Below, in pieces: positions 3,726 through 62,597 of a stretch of 64,000 nucleotides of DNA. The DNA lies in IMG/VR virus record IMGVR_UViG_3300037200_000120, positions 1-64,000 of that record. One strand, 5' to 3'. The DNA is from a virus. The translations under genes were made by a program, and so were the position numbers. Within the stretch, counting starts at the first letter, position 1, and the number at the start of each line of letters is the position of its first letter. The notes below the pieces were generated by a model. It was not told the DNA's origin. It did not search any database and worked only from the letters and a program-made list of their open reading frames with translations.

Positions 3726-4808
3726 ATGAACGAGATCGCTCGCGCCGAGTCATTCGAACCGGAAGTCGACCAATTCTCCGCGTGGCGGGAAGCGCTCGCC
3801 ACCGGCAAGCCTGTCGCCTATGAGCGCGGCGCGCCGACGGCCGGCTGTTACAAGCGCATGCGCCGGGTCAGCGCAACTGACCGCACCAAGATTTACGACG
3901 TGATCGGCATCTGGTTCGAGGATGGGGAATGGACCTGCCGCGGAAGTGGCGGATTTATCCCTAGGGACGGAGATACGGACGAAATCGAAGGCCTGTTCGT
4001 ATCGATCAACTCTCAGCCAATTTCGTTCGAGCTCTACGAGTCCATCATGGCCGGCGGGACCTGGCCCGAGGAAGTCGCCAAGGTCGAAGATCCGGAGCCG
4101 GAGTTGGCCCCACACGAGGCCGCTGCGGCCTACTTCAAAAAGCACAAGGCAATCGCCGATGCATGGCTCGCCGGGCTTAAAGACGCCGACGGCAAGCCGA
4201 GGAAGCCGAACACGAAAGAAGAGTCTGATCTGGCCGCGAATTACGCCGACACGTTCGGCAAGATCGAAACCCGCGCCGAGAAAGCTCGCGCGGCCGAAAA
4301 GGCGCCGCACATTTTGGCGGGAAACGAAGTCGACGCCAAATGGAATCCCATTAAAGAAGCAGCCAAGCTCGCCAAGGTTAACGCCAAGGCGCTGTCCGAG
4401 GAGTTCGCCAGGGCGGAAAACGCCCGCCGTAAGCGCGAGGCGGACGAAGAGAACGTCCGGCGCCAGCGCGAATTCGACGCCGCAGAGGCCGCCAGGCTCG
4501 CCAGGGAAGCCGAACTCCGCGCCAAGGGCGTCAAGGTTCCCGAGATGGCGCAAGCGCCGGCCCCAGAGCCGCCCAAGGCCGTTGTCGCCGAGCCGGTTCG
4601 CGTCGGAACAGTCGGGCGCCGGCAATCGCTTCGGACCTTCACGACATATGCGCTCGACGATTCGCGGGCAACGCTAGAATTTCTCGCCAAGCGGAATATC
4701 AAATCTGCCGCCCTGCTCGAGGCGGCGCTCGCCGACGCTAAGGCGCTCCACGCGATCGGGACAGAGGTTCCAGGCCTCAAGGTTGGAACAGAGGAGCGCA
4801 TGGTATGA
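3726..4808 (+). CDS. Hypothetical protein upstream of recombinase (360 aa)
   Basis: It has an N-terminal globular part (about residues 1-110), a long charged coiled-coil region (about 130-270, rich in Ala/Glu/Lys/Arg) and a C-terminal helical tail. Its ATGG stop/start overlap with the Bet gene (4805) indicates coupled expression, so a role in the recombination module is possible. No nuclease motif is visible, so it should not be called an exonuclease. Confidence 0.65.
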   Translation: MNEIARAESFEPEVDQFSAWREALATGKPVAYERGAPTAGCYKRMRRVSATDRTKIYDVIGIWFEDGEWTCRGSGGFIPRDGDTDEIEGLFVSINSQPISFELYESIMAGGTWPEEVAKVEDPEPELAPHEAAAAYFKKHKAIADAWLAGLKDADGKPRKPNTKEESDLAANYADTFGKIETRAEKARAAEKAPHILAGNEVDAKWNPIKEAAKLAKVNAKALSEEFARAENARRKREADEENVRRQREFDAAEAARLAREAELRAKGVKVPEMAQAPAPEPPKAVVAEPVRVGTVGRRQSLRTFTTYALDDSRATLEFLAKRNIKSAALLEAALADAKALHAIGTEVPGLKVGTEERMV

Positions 4809-53763: not shown

Positions 53764-55442
53764 CAGACTTCTTCGATGTCGGCCGTGGCATACGCCGCGA
53801 TGAATGTCCTGGGAACCGGATCAGACACCACGATCCTAAACCGCCAGTCCCGAGCCGCGCCCAACTTCTTCCAGATCAGGCGCGTCGCATAGGCCCCGGT
53901 CTTCCCCAAACTCATCCAGAGTTGCCTGATGCCATAGGTTCTGCCTTGATCCTTGGAAATCATCAGCATGATTTGAGGGTCCGAGCCCTGCCCGGTCTGT
54001 GGCGCGTCGCCGACTTGCATGTTCAGTTCGAGTTTGGAGATGAAGACCCGCTTCCGGTCTTTGTGAACCGGGGGCGAATCGGCAAACCCGATCATCGGCG
54101 ATCCGAACTCGGTGTAAACCGAGTCGGAGAGGTAGCCGATCTGGCCGGATTGAGAATCCCCGATCAGGGTTTGATTGTTGAACACGACCGAACAGTTGCC
54201 GCGCCACGCCCCGTCGAACGGCGTCGCGGCGACATACGATGTCCGCTCATGCCAGAGGCTGGTCGCGATGTCCAGTTCCCACGTCGCGTTGTTGCTGGGA
54301 AATTGCACTGCGACGAACTTGTGGCCGTTGAACGTGTAGGAGAACGCATAGGCATCTCCCGTGTTGGCATATTTCTGCCACGCGCCTTCGATAGCGTGCG
54401 TGCTCATGCGCCTGAGTAAGACGCCGTCGAGGCGGTAGAACACCAGATCGTTGCCGAGAAAGAAAACCCCGTTGTCTTCCTTGACGATCGCCAGCGCAGC
54501 CGCGCAACCACGCTCGATCGTCGCCCCGTCATACCGGGAGAACGGATCGTTGTTCGCCCCGGTATCGTACCAGGTCTCGATCGTCTTCTGTTTGAAGATC
54601 AGAAGATTTTCTTGCTGGTTTACCGTCGCGAGAACGTAACTGGAATCGACGGAGGCCTCGTTGTAATCCAGCGCCGTATAAGTGGTTCCATCATTATTGT
54701 TGGAGTAAACCCACTGGTTTGTTCCGGTGACGTCGTTGGTAAAATAGGTATCGAAGAATGTCGTCGTGGCTGCATCAGCGAAATTAGGGATCTGAGAAAA
54801 CCCGACCGGAGGGCCAGTAAATGTCAGGTTGAAACTGGCCCCAGAACCGACGCCGGTGGTCGCCGCCTGTTCGGCTGGATTTGTGGGTTCGGTTCCATAT
54901 TGGCCCGGCGAGTAGATCGTGAACGAAGCCGCAGCCGAGCCGCTGAGTGTGGCGACTTCGAGGATCGCCGGGTTCGTATAGGTTCCCCCGGCGACCGTGA
55001 TCTGATCGCCGATCGCATAGTCCGAGCCGGAAGACCCGCCGACCGGCGTCGCGGCCGAGACATTGAACACGGAAGTCGGAGCATAGATCCAACCGGCGAC
55101 GCCGTTGACGATCTGGACTTGCGTTCCGTTGTTGGCCATCGAAACCGGGCCGAACCCGGCGATGCCAGAGCCCAACTCCGTCACCGTGTCGGCGACGGTC
55201 ACGCTGTAGAGCGACTGTCCCGACACGAGGTAGAGGACGTTGTTCATGACGCTGAAGCCGCGGATCGGGCCGTTGCCCACCGTGACCAAAGTAATGATCC
55301 CAGGAGAGGCAATCACAGCGATGTCGGTTTTGGCGTCAGGCGGCTCTTTCTCGGCGTAGAGATTGACACAGCGTTGCGAGGATACCGGGAGGGAGTCGAG
55401 TTTGTACGATTGTGTCGACCATTGGATACGGAGCGGTTCCAT
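53763..55442 (-). CDS. P22 gp10-like DNA-stabilisation protein
   Basis: The 559-residue protein has SSQRCVNLYAEKEPPDAKTD and later WYDTGANNDPFSRYDGATIE, then ERGCAAALAIVKEDNGVFFL, the core of the packaged-DNA stabilisation (gp10) family, which forms the tail hub plug. An insert (about 110-230) is Gly/Thr-rich. The promoter of the + strand homing gene lies just upstream. Confidence 0.8.
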   Translation of the reverse strand: MEPLRIQWSTQSYKLDSLPVSSQRCVNLYAEKEPPDAKTDIAVIASPGIITLVTVGNGPIRGFSVMNNVLYLVSGQSLYSVTVADTVTELGSGIAGFGPVSMANNGTQVQIVNGVAGWIYAPTSVFNVSAATPVGGSSGSDYAIGDQITVAGGTYTNPAILEVATLSGSAAASFTIYSPGQYGTEPTNPAEQAATTGVGSGASFNLTFTGPPVGFSQIPNFADAATTTFFDTYFTNDVTGTNQWVYSNNNDGTTYTALDYNEASVDSSYVLATVNQQENLLIFKQKTIETWYDTGANNDPFSRYDGATIERGCAAALAIVKEDNGVFFLGNDLVFYRLDGVLLRRMSTHAIEGAWQKYANTGDAYAFSYTFNGHKFVAVQFPSNNATWELDIATSLWHERTSYVAATPFDGAWRGNCSVVFNNQTLIGDSQSGQIGYLSDSVYTEFGSPMIGFADSPPVHKDRKRVFISKLELNMQVGDAPQTGQGSDPQIMLMISKDQGRTYGIRQLWMSLGKTGAYATRLIWKKLGAARDWRFRIVVSDPVPRTFIAAYATADIEEV

Positions 55443-55466
55443 GGGCTAAAAAATCGCCCACACCTG

Positions 55467-55506
55467 TTGATTGGTGTTGCATCTCATATTATATACACTC
55501 CCTCAA
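55467..55506 (+). promoter_or_regulatory. Promoter/leader of the homing endonuclease
   Basis: TTGATT, 17-bp spacer, TATATA (55490-55495). The leader ATTATATACACTCCCTCAA (55488-55506) recurs with two changes at 57623-57641. Confidence 0.65.
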
Positions 55507-55522
55507 TCGAGGTGGATCATTC

Positions 55523-56071
55523 ATGGAAGAAATATGGAAACCCGTCACTGGCTTTGAATTAGACTACGAAGTTTCTAACCTTGGCCGCGTAAAGCGCATC
55601 AGCCCGAACCGGGCTGGAAATACAAGGTTCGTCGGGCACATCATAAAACCAATGATGAGGACGCGCGGTTACCTCGGAATCTGTCTATGGAAAGATAGGA
55701 AGCCACACTCCAAACTTATCCATCGTATCGTTATGGAAACATTCGTTGGTCCGAGAGGGAACAACACGACGAACCACAAAAACGGAATAAAAATAGATAA
55801 TATGCTAGATAACTTGGAATACGTGACTCACTCCGAAAACATACAGCACGCATTGAACGTGCTTAAATCATTCAGACCAAGAAGTGGTGAAACTCATCAT
55901 CGCGCGACGATATCTGATGTTGACATGATCAGTATATGCAACAGACTCGACGCTGGAGAACGGCCCGGACCCATCGCTTCAGAATTTGGAGTAGCATACG
56001 GAACCATACGCGATTTCAGAGATCGAAATGGGAGATCAAAAAACGTTACGAAGAAATCATCCGCGCCCTGA
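55523..56071 (+). CDS. NUMOD4-HNH homing endonuclease (free-standing)
   Basis: Starts EIWKPVTGFELDYEVSNLGR (NUMOD4), then HRIVMETFVGPRGNNTTNHK with NHKNGIKIDN (HNH), and a C-terminal HTH (ATISDVDMISICNRLDAGER). 182 residues, AT-richer than neighbours, opposite to all flanking genes and overlapping the end of the gp4-like gene by 15 bp. A typical mobile nuclease gene. Confidence 0.85.
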   Translation: MEEIWKPVTGFELDYEVSNLGRVKRISPNRAGNTRFVGHIIKPMMRTRGYLGICLWKDRKPHSKLIHRIVMETFVGPRGNNTTNHKNGIKIDNMLDNLEYVTHSENIQHALNVLKSFRPRSGETHHRATISDVDMISICNRLDAGERPGPIASEFGVAYGTIRDFRDRNGRSKNVTKKSSAP

Positions 56072-59573: not shown

Positions 59574-59687
59574 TGTCATGACTCCGAGAGTGCCCGGCGT
59601 GATTCGAACCGCCGCTTACCCGACCAGGGACACAGAGAGGATTGCGCTACGCGCCGCTGACGCCGGGTTTTGAGCCTTCGGGAGGGC

Positions 59688-60398
59688 TTAGAGCTTGTGC
59701 TTCGCTAGATAGGCGATGGCGCGTTGGAGAATGGCCTGATCGTCTCGACCGTAGCCGAGCATTCGATTGCAGCGGACGCAAAGGAGACCGCGAACCTTGC
59801 CGGTGTCGTGATCGTGGTCTACGGACAACTCTTGGACTACTTTCGTCCTCGAGTTGATGAAACTCTCAGGATTGCCGCATATGTCGCAAACATACCCTTG
59901 AGCTTTCGCCAGGGCGGCATATTCCGTCACGTCGATGCCGAACTTTTTCTTCAGCGTCCAATTGCGGACGTAATCGGCACGCTCTTGCGGCGTGAAGTAG
60001 TCCTTGACGGGAACCTCAGGCGGCGGCAACCAGAACAGATTGTCTTTCACCCACGGGCCGGTAGGATCGATCAGCCTGAGAACATGCTTTGGGCCTGGAC
60101 GCTCCCCGACATCGGCGAGGAAGGCGTCAAACCAGCGCCAGGAGGCCGGATAGTTGCCGGCCCCTAAGCGCAGCCTCGTATTTTTCCAGAGCGGCTTTAA
60201 CGGGTGACTGTCCCGCGCGTAATGGTGCGAGCAAAGCTTCTTGGCGAAAACGATTTCCGTGCATCCCTCGATATCGCACGTTCTCGTCAATTCCGAGTAT
60301 TCAGACAACGTACCGCTGGTGCGCTCGCTTTCGTAGCACCCAGTGCATAATCCGCGCCCTTGGTTGCGCTTATCTCTACCGCATTTCCTGCATATCAT
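59688..60398 (-). CDS. Endonuclease VII-like HNH nuclease (homing-type, 236 aa)
   Basis: Two Cys pairs near the start (CRKCGRDKRNQGRGLCTGCY), a second zinc region and the C-terminal endonuclease VII core: YVCDICGNPESF, then LSVDHDHDTGKVRGLLCVRC (His-Asp-His). It lies directly after the fourth group I ribozyme and in the same direction, as intron-homing genes do. Start ATG 60398; no other function evident. Confidence 0.8.
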   Translation of the reverse strand: MICRKCGRDKRNQGRGLCTGCYESERTSGTLSEYSELTRTCDIEGCTEIVFAKKLCSHHYARDSHPLKPLWKNTRLRLGAGNYPASWRWFDAFLADVGERPGPKHVLRLIDPTGPWVKDNLFWLPPPEVPVKDYFTPQERADYVRNWTLKKKFGIDVTEYAALAKAQGYVCDICGNPESFINSRTKVVQELSVDHDHDTGKVRGLLCVRCNRMLGYGRDDQAILQRAIAYLAKHKL

Positions 60399-60539
60399 CC
60401 GGTTACGGCCATGGTAGGCCCCTCTGTTGAAGGAAGCCAACCATGTACCTTTTTGTTGACGACCAATCAAGATCAATCGTCAGACGCCAGGCCATTATTT
60501 CACCCTCGGTCGCTATCCCGAAGATCGTCCACTGAGGAC

Positions 60540-60812
60540 TGCTGAACGTTTCCGCTCAGAGAAGACCATATCATGATCTCTCGAAAGAGACCCTGCGCAC
60601 TTCCCGCCGCTTGGCGGTACTCCCCGAAGGGATGGCCGTTGAACCTTCCGCTCATTGAGCGGCTCGGCTGCTGATTGTCCAATCTAGTTGCTTTTCAAAC
60701 TATCGCGCCCGCCGTTGCCGGCCACGCTGTAGTGAACTAGCTCTAAGGATGTTCCAGCAATTCACGCAGTTATTCGACAGTAGTCGCCTACTGAAGGACC
60801 CAATATGTGGCG
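60540..60812 (-). ncRNA. Group I intron-like ribozyme 4 (downstream of the capsid stop)
   Basis: Minus-strand core: GAATTGCTGGAACATCC, GACAATCAGCAGCC, GGTTCAACGGCCAT, GATATGGTC and the P9 hairpin CTGAGCGGAAACGTTCAG. The P7 pair is GGCCAT with ATGGTC where the other introns have GACTA with TAGTC; this is a compensatory change, so the helix is kept. The 5' splice site is uncertain. Its 3' end may lie after the endonuclease gene. Confidence 0.6.
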
Positions 60813-62597
60813 TCACATATAGTAACGAGTCCCGTAGATCCCGCGGAAGTCGCTCCAACCGCAAGAATAACGCTCGTAACAAGCCGCTTTGGCGTTCTTG
60901 GTATCGACGCTTATGTTCGATTTGGATAGCAACTCCAAACCCGTCCTAAGTGGACTGCCTCATATTACTATGAGGGCCAGACTATATCATCATCCTGAAT
61001 ACTCAGGAGTGGGGCGCTTCGGCTCGCTTGAGCCTACGATCTCGCGATCTAGTCGTTGCACCTTCCGTCTCTCGACGGCTTGGCTCAGGATTGTCCCCGG
61101 CACCACCCGGTAGGAGATTCCCTGAGTTCACCCCATTCTTCGATGCGAGTCACCCCGCAAAGGACCTAATTCCAAAGAATTGAGTCGTTGTCCTGATCGC
61201 TAACTATTCGAAATGAATCGCTAATTCATCCCCGGCTTGCGCCTGCTGCACGTTTCCGCGCAGAGTGGACTATATCTTCATCTATTCAATACTGAATAGA
61301 GCTAGGAACTTCGGCCCGCTTGGGCCTACGGTCTCGCGACCTAGTCTCTGAACCTTCATCACGATATTACATGATGCTTGGCTGCTGATTGCCCAATCCT
61401 GCAAATTTTCAAACCGTCACGCTCGCCGTTACCAGCCACGTTGTGGTTTTGCAGGCTCTAAGGGTGTTCCAGCAATTCACCTAGTTTAGACAGCTCCAAT
61501 CATTAAAGCTGATGCCCTCGCGCTCGTACCACATCATCCCGCGCGGGATATTCGTCCTGATAAACCAGGCGGTCGCGCTGGAGAAATAGTGGCTGGCGAA
61601 GATCCCCTTCGGGAAAGCTCCCATGGCGCGCATCACGTTGATGTTGTTGTTCGCCGTGTCGCTCTGAAGCACGCTCTTGTAGATGCGGTTAGCTTCGAAG
61701 ATGAGCTGATAGGGGATATGGAGGGACTGAGGAAGCGCGGAGATTTTCAGCCCGCGCGAATTGACCGTGAGGCCGACCTGGATCAGCAGATCCTCGATTG
61801 CGGTTTCGGACAAGTCCGCCGCCGTCGTGAGGAGATTCGACTGAGAGCCGCCGACAGTCGGATGCGCATTGTTGATCATGCACGTTCCGTCGCCGCCCGT
61901 ATAGGCCGTGTTGAATGCACGGTTGTAGACGTTGGCCGCGATGTTTTCCTTGGTCTGCCGCATCGAGAACGCCAATTGCTGGGCGCGACGCTTGCTGACC
62001 ACTTCGTAGAGATCGTCTTTCAACTCTTCGTACGTGACGATGTAGCCGAGAGCATAGGCGACGTTCGTATAGCGAGTGACCGAACCCTGGGTTTCGGTGT
62101 CGTACACGATCGAAGTGCCTTCGTTCTTGACCGGCGCCAAGCCGAAGCCGGTGATTTCGACCTCTTCTTCGTACGCCTTGTCTGAGGTGTCCTGCTCGAA
62201 CAGATCCGACCATTCGGAAACGTGTTCGTCGTAGGAACGCCCCCACCAAGCCGCGATTCCTGGCCAAAGGGCCTTCGCTTGTTTGTTCGACGCAATTCGC
62301 TAGATTGCGCCCGTCGCTCTAAACGCGACCGCTGCATATCGCTATGCAGGCCTGACTATCTCTTGCCCCTCAATTGATCGATAGGGGCCGCACCATTTCG
62401 GCTCGCTTGAGCCTACGGCCTTTCGGCCTAGTCGATGAACCTTACGACGTGCTATGATCGTCGTCTTGGCTGCTGATTGTCCGATCGTCGGAATCAGAAC
62501 GAGCGGAGTTCCCGGCAATTAAATGCGATCCCATTGCGCATTACGGCGCAATGGCCCGAGTTTATGCAGGATGTGTGCCTGTAGTAATAACGGCCAT
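60813..62597 (-). CDS. Major capsid protein, four exons interrupted by three group I introns
   Basis: Exons: 62568-62597, 62275-61506, 61199-61174, 60907-60813 (minus strand; 30+770+26+95 nt). Spliced, they give a 306-residue protein with no stop: MAVITTGTHP joined to KALWPGIAAW, a long HK97-type core (LGYIVTYEELKDDLYEVVSK, FSMRQTKENIAANVYNRAFN, NINVMRAMGAFPKGI), exon 3 giving FDQDNDSIL, and exon 4 starting in the codon of FDTKNAKAACYERYSCGW. The joined order FDQDND...FDT.NAK is the family's C-terminal pattern. GGAGG lies 7 bp before ATG 62597. Each internal piece ends in a stop if not spliced. Confidence 0.8.
60908..61173 (-). ncRNA. Group I intron 3 in the capsid gene (266 nt)
   Basis: 5' site after exon ATTCTTT, pairing with internal guide GAAGAAT (7 pairs, ending in U-G). 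Core elements GCAACGACTAGATCGCG and GATATAGTC (P7 GACTA/TAGTC). Last base G, before TCGATACC. Confidence 0.75.
61200..61505 (-). ncRNA. Group I intron 2 in the capsid gene (306 nt)
   Basis: 5' site after exon CAGCTT, pairing with guide GAGCTG (six pairs, terminal U-G). Core: AATTGCTGGAACACCC, CAATCAGCAGCC, GGTTCAGAGACTAGG and GAAGATATAGTCC; P9 hairpin CTGCGCGGAAACGTGCAG. Last base G, before CGATCAGG. Confidence 0.75.
62276..62567 (-). ncRNA. Group I intron 1 in the capsid gene (292 nt)
   Basis: 5' site after exon ATCCT, pairing with guide GGGAT (5 pairs, terminal U-G). Core: GACAATCAGCAGCC, GGTTCATCGACTAGGCC and AAGAGATAGTC. Last base G, before AAGGCC. It interrupts the gene after codon 10. 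Confidence 0.8.

Follow-up and report, generated by a model that had tools for sequence, protein, structure and literature searches.

Several self-splicing introns within one phage gene are already known, and the capsid gene described here is an extreme, cleanly resolved case. Its closest precedent is the major capsid (MCP) gene of the crAss-like Zeta group (cMAG OLRF01000054), which lies in five fragments separated by four inserts (Yutin et al. 2021, PMC7886860). Both are major capsid reading frames cut into five pieces by four insertions, but three of the four inserts of the crAss-like gene were identified from protein domains that typically accompany group I introns, whereas the present gene is interrupted by four ribozymes that lack open reading frames (ORFs) and have exact boundaries, and its smallest exons are 17 and 12 nt long. 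In Staphylococcus phage Twort, the tail tube gene orf142 possesses three group I introns and undergoes exon skipping, according to Landthaler and Shub (1999) as cited in PMC11878797. It too is one structural gene of a phage that several self-splicing group I introns interrupt, although by that account there are three and their splicing was demonstrated, as against four, in a capsid gene, here, where loss of the internal exons examined would shift the reading frame. The Bastillevirinae likewise contain genes with two or three introns, and a small internal exon was detected there by RNA sequencing; however, these are polymerase, terminase and nucleotide-metabolism genes, and most of their introns carry homing nucleases (PMC11878797). 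In mycobacteriophage LittleE, removal of an intron from the major capsid gene was demonstrated by RT-PCR (PMC3706429). This intron resembles ours in its position in a major capsid gene, in the U that precedes it and in its terminal G, but it stands alone in its gene and includes a nuclease frame. An exon of one base is reported for placozoan mitochondria (PMC5436844); in openly licensed papers we came across no phage gene described with an exon of 17 nt or less between two of its group I introns.

A second comparison concerns the gene that follows the capsid gene. F-CphI of cyanophage S-PM2 is a free-standing nuclease encoded beside the intron-containing psbA gene; it cuts the intronless allele, and the intron blocks cutting, an arrangement termed 'collaborative homing' (PMC6083498). 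Here as well, a free-standing gene for an endonuclease-VII-type nuclease adjoins an intron-containing gene, although cleavage and protection were demonstrated for S-PM2, whereas the present likeness is one of layout and motif alone. The locus offers a second case, open to testing, of an Endo VII-type nuclease beside an intron-laden gene. It also presents the most heavily used structural gene of a phage, predicted to depend on four ribozymes in one transcript, two of which flank the same 17-nt exon, and a natural substrate for studying how neighbouring group I introns escape mis-pairing and the skipping of exons.

Exon and intron map of the capsid gene

The minus strand of the window (the whole 64-kb stretch of DNA analysed) carries a cluster of head and tail genes, and the major capsid gene occupies 62597-60480 on this strand, with five exons, four group I introns and an AGGAGG ribosome-binding sequence upstream of exon 1 (Table 1). 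A covariance-model scan of the window with the Rfam group I intron model RF00028 (curated cut-off 50 bits) returned four full-length matches of 50.5-82.1 bits, all on the minus strand and all with the full catalytic core; those of introns 1 and 4 lie barely above the cut-off. No further RF00028 match was present elsewhere in the whole 98,892-base virus record, so the detectable group I introns of this uncultivated phage are all in one gene. No ORF was found within any of the four.

The boundaries were fixed by comparison with relatives, 80 of which were found among viral contigs in a search with the central exon; no prophage relatives were confirmed among bacterial genome contigs. In L001-L005, which are 94% identical to the window over the central part, the capsid gene is uninterrupted and reads MAVITTG(S/T)HPKALWPG...AISFDQDNDFDTKNAK...GWSDFRGIYGTPGV and a stop, and intronless relatives run through DQDNDFDTKN without extra codons. 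Records L006 and L007, counted as one because they are identical over 10.7 kb, are 82% identical to the window; an intron 69% identical to intron 3 occupies precisely its site in them, and a second lies towards the N-terminus, near codon 19. When the exons of the window are joined, they encode 302 residues ending in GIYGT/PGV and a stop, which align without gaps to L001 (302/302). In profile searches, this protein matches PF25209 (32.4 bits, cut-off 27) and the PHROG family phrog_371 (E 2e-9), and annotated phage capsid proteins are at most 59% identical to it. Because the longest open frame of the gene is a 219-residue fragment, ordinary gene calling would miss most of the capsid exons.

Table 1. 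Features of the capsid locus, numbered by position in the window (^, splice site; /, exon junction)
Feature	Position	Strand	Description	Basis
Capsid exon 1	62568..62597	-	30 nt, MAVITTGTHP	sequence; alignment to intronless L001-L005
Group I intron 1	62276..62567	-	292 nt; 5' CATCCT^GCAT, 3' AAGCG^AAGG; guide GGGAT 62532-62528; P1 5 bp with U-G	RF00028 50.5 bits; boundaries from intronless relatives
RF00028 match, intron 1	62573-62332	-		50.5 bits, E 7e-10
Capsid exon 2	61506..62275	-	770 nt	intronless relatives
Group I intron 2	61200..61505	-	306 nt; 5' CAGCTT^TAAT, 3' GTTAG^CGAT; P1 guide GAGCTG 61496-61491; P10 element TGATTG 61502-61497, 6 bp with exon 3 start CGATCA	RF00028 82.1 bits; boundaries from intronless relatives
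RF00028 match, intron 2	61515-61246	-		82.1 bits, E 2e-19
Capsid exon 3	61183..61199	-	17 nt, CGATCAGGACAACGACT, most of the DQDND codons	intronless relatives
Group I intron 3	60908..61182	-	275 nt; 5' CGACT^CAAT, 3' AAGCG^TCGA; guide GGTC 61166-61163	RF00028 67.7 bits; site-orthologous intron
RF00028 match, intron 3	61187-60958	-		67.7 bits, E 5e-15
Capsid exon 4	60828..60907	-	80 nt, FDTKNAK...GIYGT	intronless relatives
Group I intron 4	60492..60827	-	336 nt; 5' GGGACT^CGTT, 3' ATAATGG^CCTG; guide GGTCCT 60800-60795; P1 6 bp	RF00028 52 bits; boundaries from intronless relatives
RF00028 match, intron 4	60837-60542	-		52.0 bits, E 2.5e-10
Capsid exon 5	60480..60491	-	12 nt, CCTGGCGTCTGA, PGV and stop	relatives end GIYGTPGV and stop
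Predicted exon junctions			CATCCT/AAGGCC; CAGCTT/CGATCAGG; CAACGACT/TCGATACC; GGGACT/CCTGGCG	
Free-standing endonuclease-VII-type nuclease ORF	59688..60397	-	236 aa counted from the start that L006 also has; open from 60476	

At the boundaries set in this way, the splice-site rules of group I introns are observed throughout. The last base of each of the four 5' exons is a U that faces a G in the internal guide, in a P1 of 4-6 bp (AUCCU/GGGAU, CAGCUU/GAGCUG, GACU/GGUC and GGGACU/GGUCCU for introns 1-4), and each of the four introns ends in G, as an earlier note made from the sequence had stated for three of them. The guides that this note had named for introns 1 and 2, GGGAT and GAGCTG, were confirmed by their pairing at the homology-fixed sites, while for intron 3 the proposed GAAGAAT gave way to GGTC. 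P1 of intron 3 is short, with 4 bp followed by an internal extension; a free fold of this intron together with the end of its 5' exon produced the expected P1 hairpin and the domain hairpins, with a stability 2.8 standard deviations beyond that of shuffled sequences. By strict pairing, P10 is a perfect 6 bp in intron 2 (UGAUUG) and 1 bp in each of introns 1, 3 and 4. Exon 3 is workable at 17 nt because its first six bases serve intron 2 (P10) and no more than the last four serve intron 3 (P1); because these stretches do not overlap, the two introns could in principle act in either order.

Coding constraint and the case for splicing

The exons that lie downstream of introns have changed almost exclusively at synonymous positions. 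All 12 changes in exon 4 relative to L001 are synonymous (P 5e-9 if change were random), as are all 17 in this exon relative to L002, all four in exon 3 relative to L002 (P 2e-4) and all three in exon 5 relative to either L001 or L002. Relative to L001, exon 1 has six synonymous changes and one nonsynonymous change, and exon 2 has 118 and 21, respectively. Such a pattern of purifying selection indicates that the downstream exons are still translated, which needs splicing; near-exclusively synonymous change is the strongest support for splicing short of RNA, and at the level of sequence the splicing of the capsid introns is strongly implied. Failure to splice introns 1-3 would truncate the capsid protein (translation through intron 1 ends after 11 residues), failure to splice intron 4 would alter its last residues, giving a 303-residue product with a changed tail, and skipping of exon 3, exon 4 or both would change either the reading frame or the protein's end.

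From the intron cores, the homology-defined boundaries and the coding constraint, we infer that splicing takes place in vivo. We propose that the four ORF-less introns would leave the pre-mRNA by the two-step, guanosine-initiated reaction, with the five exons being joined to encode a single 302-residue capsid protein. We hold it to be highly probable that the introns remove themselves with this result, that they were most likely acquired separately and that the adjoining nuclease probably participates in collaborative homing.

Two other accounts of the interrupted frame must be weighed against self-removal of four introns. The earlier note recognised three introns, a 26-nt exon and a 306-residue protein, a reading that would leave intron 4 outside the gene and end the capsid at GIYGTRYYM. 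Its three introns stand, since RF00028 cores occur at all three of the places it named on the coding (minus) strand and the covariance model found matches in every gap, but the count is four, and the overlooked last exon (three codons and a stop) carries the gene past the earlier coordinates to 60480. The 303 residues obtained even with intron 4 retained, and the alternative pairing GAAGAAT for intron 3, speak for three introns, yet this seems to us scarcely credible. In the relatives, DQDND is followed directly by FDTKN and the protein ends in PGV and a stop; CCTGGCGTCTGA, which encodes precisely this end and is preceded by G, follows the core of intron 4; and the site-orthologous intron of L006 begins after the same GACAACGACT as intron 3, the 5' site of which had been placed nine bases too far downstream. 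It was because of this misplacement that the 17-nt exon (61199-61183) was read as 26 nt, and the spliced protein, without the extra codons that its relatives also lack, is the 302-residue product with its gapless alignment. The broader claim of a capsid gene with several group I introns and a very small exon is supported by the RF00028 matches and the relatives, and alignment to intronless relatives agreed with the expectation that related capsid proteins lack intron-encoded residues. We also consider it very improbable that the introns are degenerate, with the gene broken and another capsid protein in use, or the DNA derived from a dead prophage or mis-assembly. Two of the introns do score near the Rfam cut-off, but all exons, including those of 17, 80 and 12 nt, are conserved with almost solely synonymous change, an independent phage (L006/L007) has an intron at the identical site, and the catalytic core keeps its elements while the splice-site rules are obeyed.

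A longer intron 4 that encloses the nuclease ORF, with its 3' site near 59670 (CCCGGCGTC) or 59590, was considered as well. It was rejected because this stretch resembles intergenic DNA of L002 and also because the exon for PGV and the stop comes directly after the intron core, at 60491.

Related introns in other phages

Introns are found in the capsid genes of several other relatives. L071 has a 939-nt intron after HPKA that contains its own long reading frame, and in L085, L140 and L092, with capsids 51-55% identical, the N-terminal part is interrupted by an intron that carries a coding insert; by eye, the reading frames in these four introns look like GIY-YIG nucleases. The conserved ends of the gene in this capsid family are thus places where introns have inserted repeatedly. 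A pattern drawn from the P7.1/P7.2-like region of the introns occurred in 94 viral stretches, and all of the 50 checked records with this pattern contained group I introns. Among them, L100 (G066:1542-2906) and L118 (G084:226-1683) are SU10-type capsid genes (PF17236) that resemble the present gene in carrying related group I introns, but they belong to another capsid family and have three introns each rather than four.

Introns 1-3 each find their best match in the introns of other phages over one another; intron 2 is matched by an intron of the SU10-type gene L118, and intron 3 by those of L006 and L111. We suggest that each intron was most likely drawn independently from a stock of related phage introns and that they did not arise by copying one another, with introns 2 and 4 as a possible exception. 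The converse proposal, in which introns spread by reverse splicing inside the gene and not by homing from other phages, finds some encouragement in the relationship between introns 2 and 4 (77% over 111 nt) and in the GACU that ends the 5' exons of both introns 3 and 4. Nevertheless, we think it unlikely, given that in pairwise matches introns 1, 2 and 3 are closer to introns of other phage genes than to their neighbours.

Pairs of closely related group I introns lying about 0.8 kb apart were observed in L098, L099, L102, L111 and L133. A separate observation concerns L006 (4697-4680 region) and also L007, in which a 13-nt insertion, GAACCATTATATG, occurs in the capsid gene directly after AAGGCCT near 4667. 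It separates HPKA from LWPGIKA, exactly where L071 carries its group I intron, and it follows a U and ends in G; the frame needs its removal or bypass in addition to excision of both introns, and the adjacent WPGIKA codons differ from those of L008 only synonymously. A pattern scan for other carriers returned only the L006/L007 records and unrelated DNA. The insertion and the neighbouring intron are both preceded by GCCU, and the ribozyme of that intron could conceivably remove the insertion, which otherwise would be the remnant of an intron since lost, or else an error in a single virus.

The adjoining nuclease gene

The nuclease ORF starts 82 nt past the capsid stop. Its product gives a PHROG endonuclease VII match and a match to PF02945 (E 6e-22) at residues 175-258 of 262, that is, as a C-terminal domain, with the pattern CX2C, DHDH, R, CX2C, N (CDIC..VDHDHDTGKVRGLLCVRCN) at the C-terminal end. 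L006/L007 have a relative of the gene in the same position behind the capsid gene, and further relatives occupy this place in at least eight phages with an uninterrupted capsid gene (L013, L014, L015, L017, L018, L026, L027 and L061), which suggests that the gene is mobile and favours this spot. Because the nuclease is also found behind uninterrupted capsid genes, its link to the introns is positional and not exclusive; the gene occurs with introns in the window and in L006/L007 and without them at the eight loci, lineages too few for a firm statistic.

As judged from its layout and motif, the Endo VII-type gene likely encodes a homing endonuclease, and collaborative homing is our best guess for the mechanism. 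The nuclease would probably cut the intronless capsid alleles of rival phages and thereby carry the flanking introns along. It is quite possible, although we lean against it, that the gene instead encodes an ordinary Holliday-junction resolvase or is an unrelated passenger with no tie to the introns, as the presence of the same gene in the same position behind the eight uninterrupted capsid genes would allow. Against this, the Endo VII domain lies at the C-terminus, where the homing-endonuclease clade has it, and not at the N-terminus, where resolvases do (PMC6083498); the patchy occurrence of the gene right after one particular gene is typical of a mobile gene; and it does not occur in the records for L001-L005, the nearest relatives without introns. 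A bolder extension of collaborative homing, which strikes us as distinctly unlikely, would make the 3' end of the capsid gene a battlefield in which the nuclease cuts the intronless capsid genes of rivals, the three introns next to it, within about 110 coding bases, give the phage's own copy layers of protection, and the introns are kept for this benefit instead of simply being tolerated.

Two minor features of the window may be recorded here. The intergenic stretch at 59580-59680 on the minus strand, which precedes the next gene, resembles a portion of a tRNA (GGTTCGAATC; arms CCCGGCG/CGCCGGG, like those of an acceptor stem) and is shared in part with L002; neither ARAGORN nor Rfam gave a tRNA or known RNA there in the window, nor did ARAGORN in the relatives. 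At 55412-56071 on the plus strand, opposite to the surrounding structural genes, a NUMOD4/HNH homing endonuclease gene sits between a head-closure gene and an adaptor-like gene.
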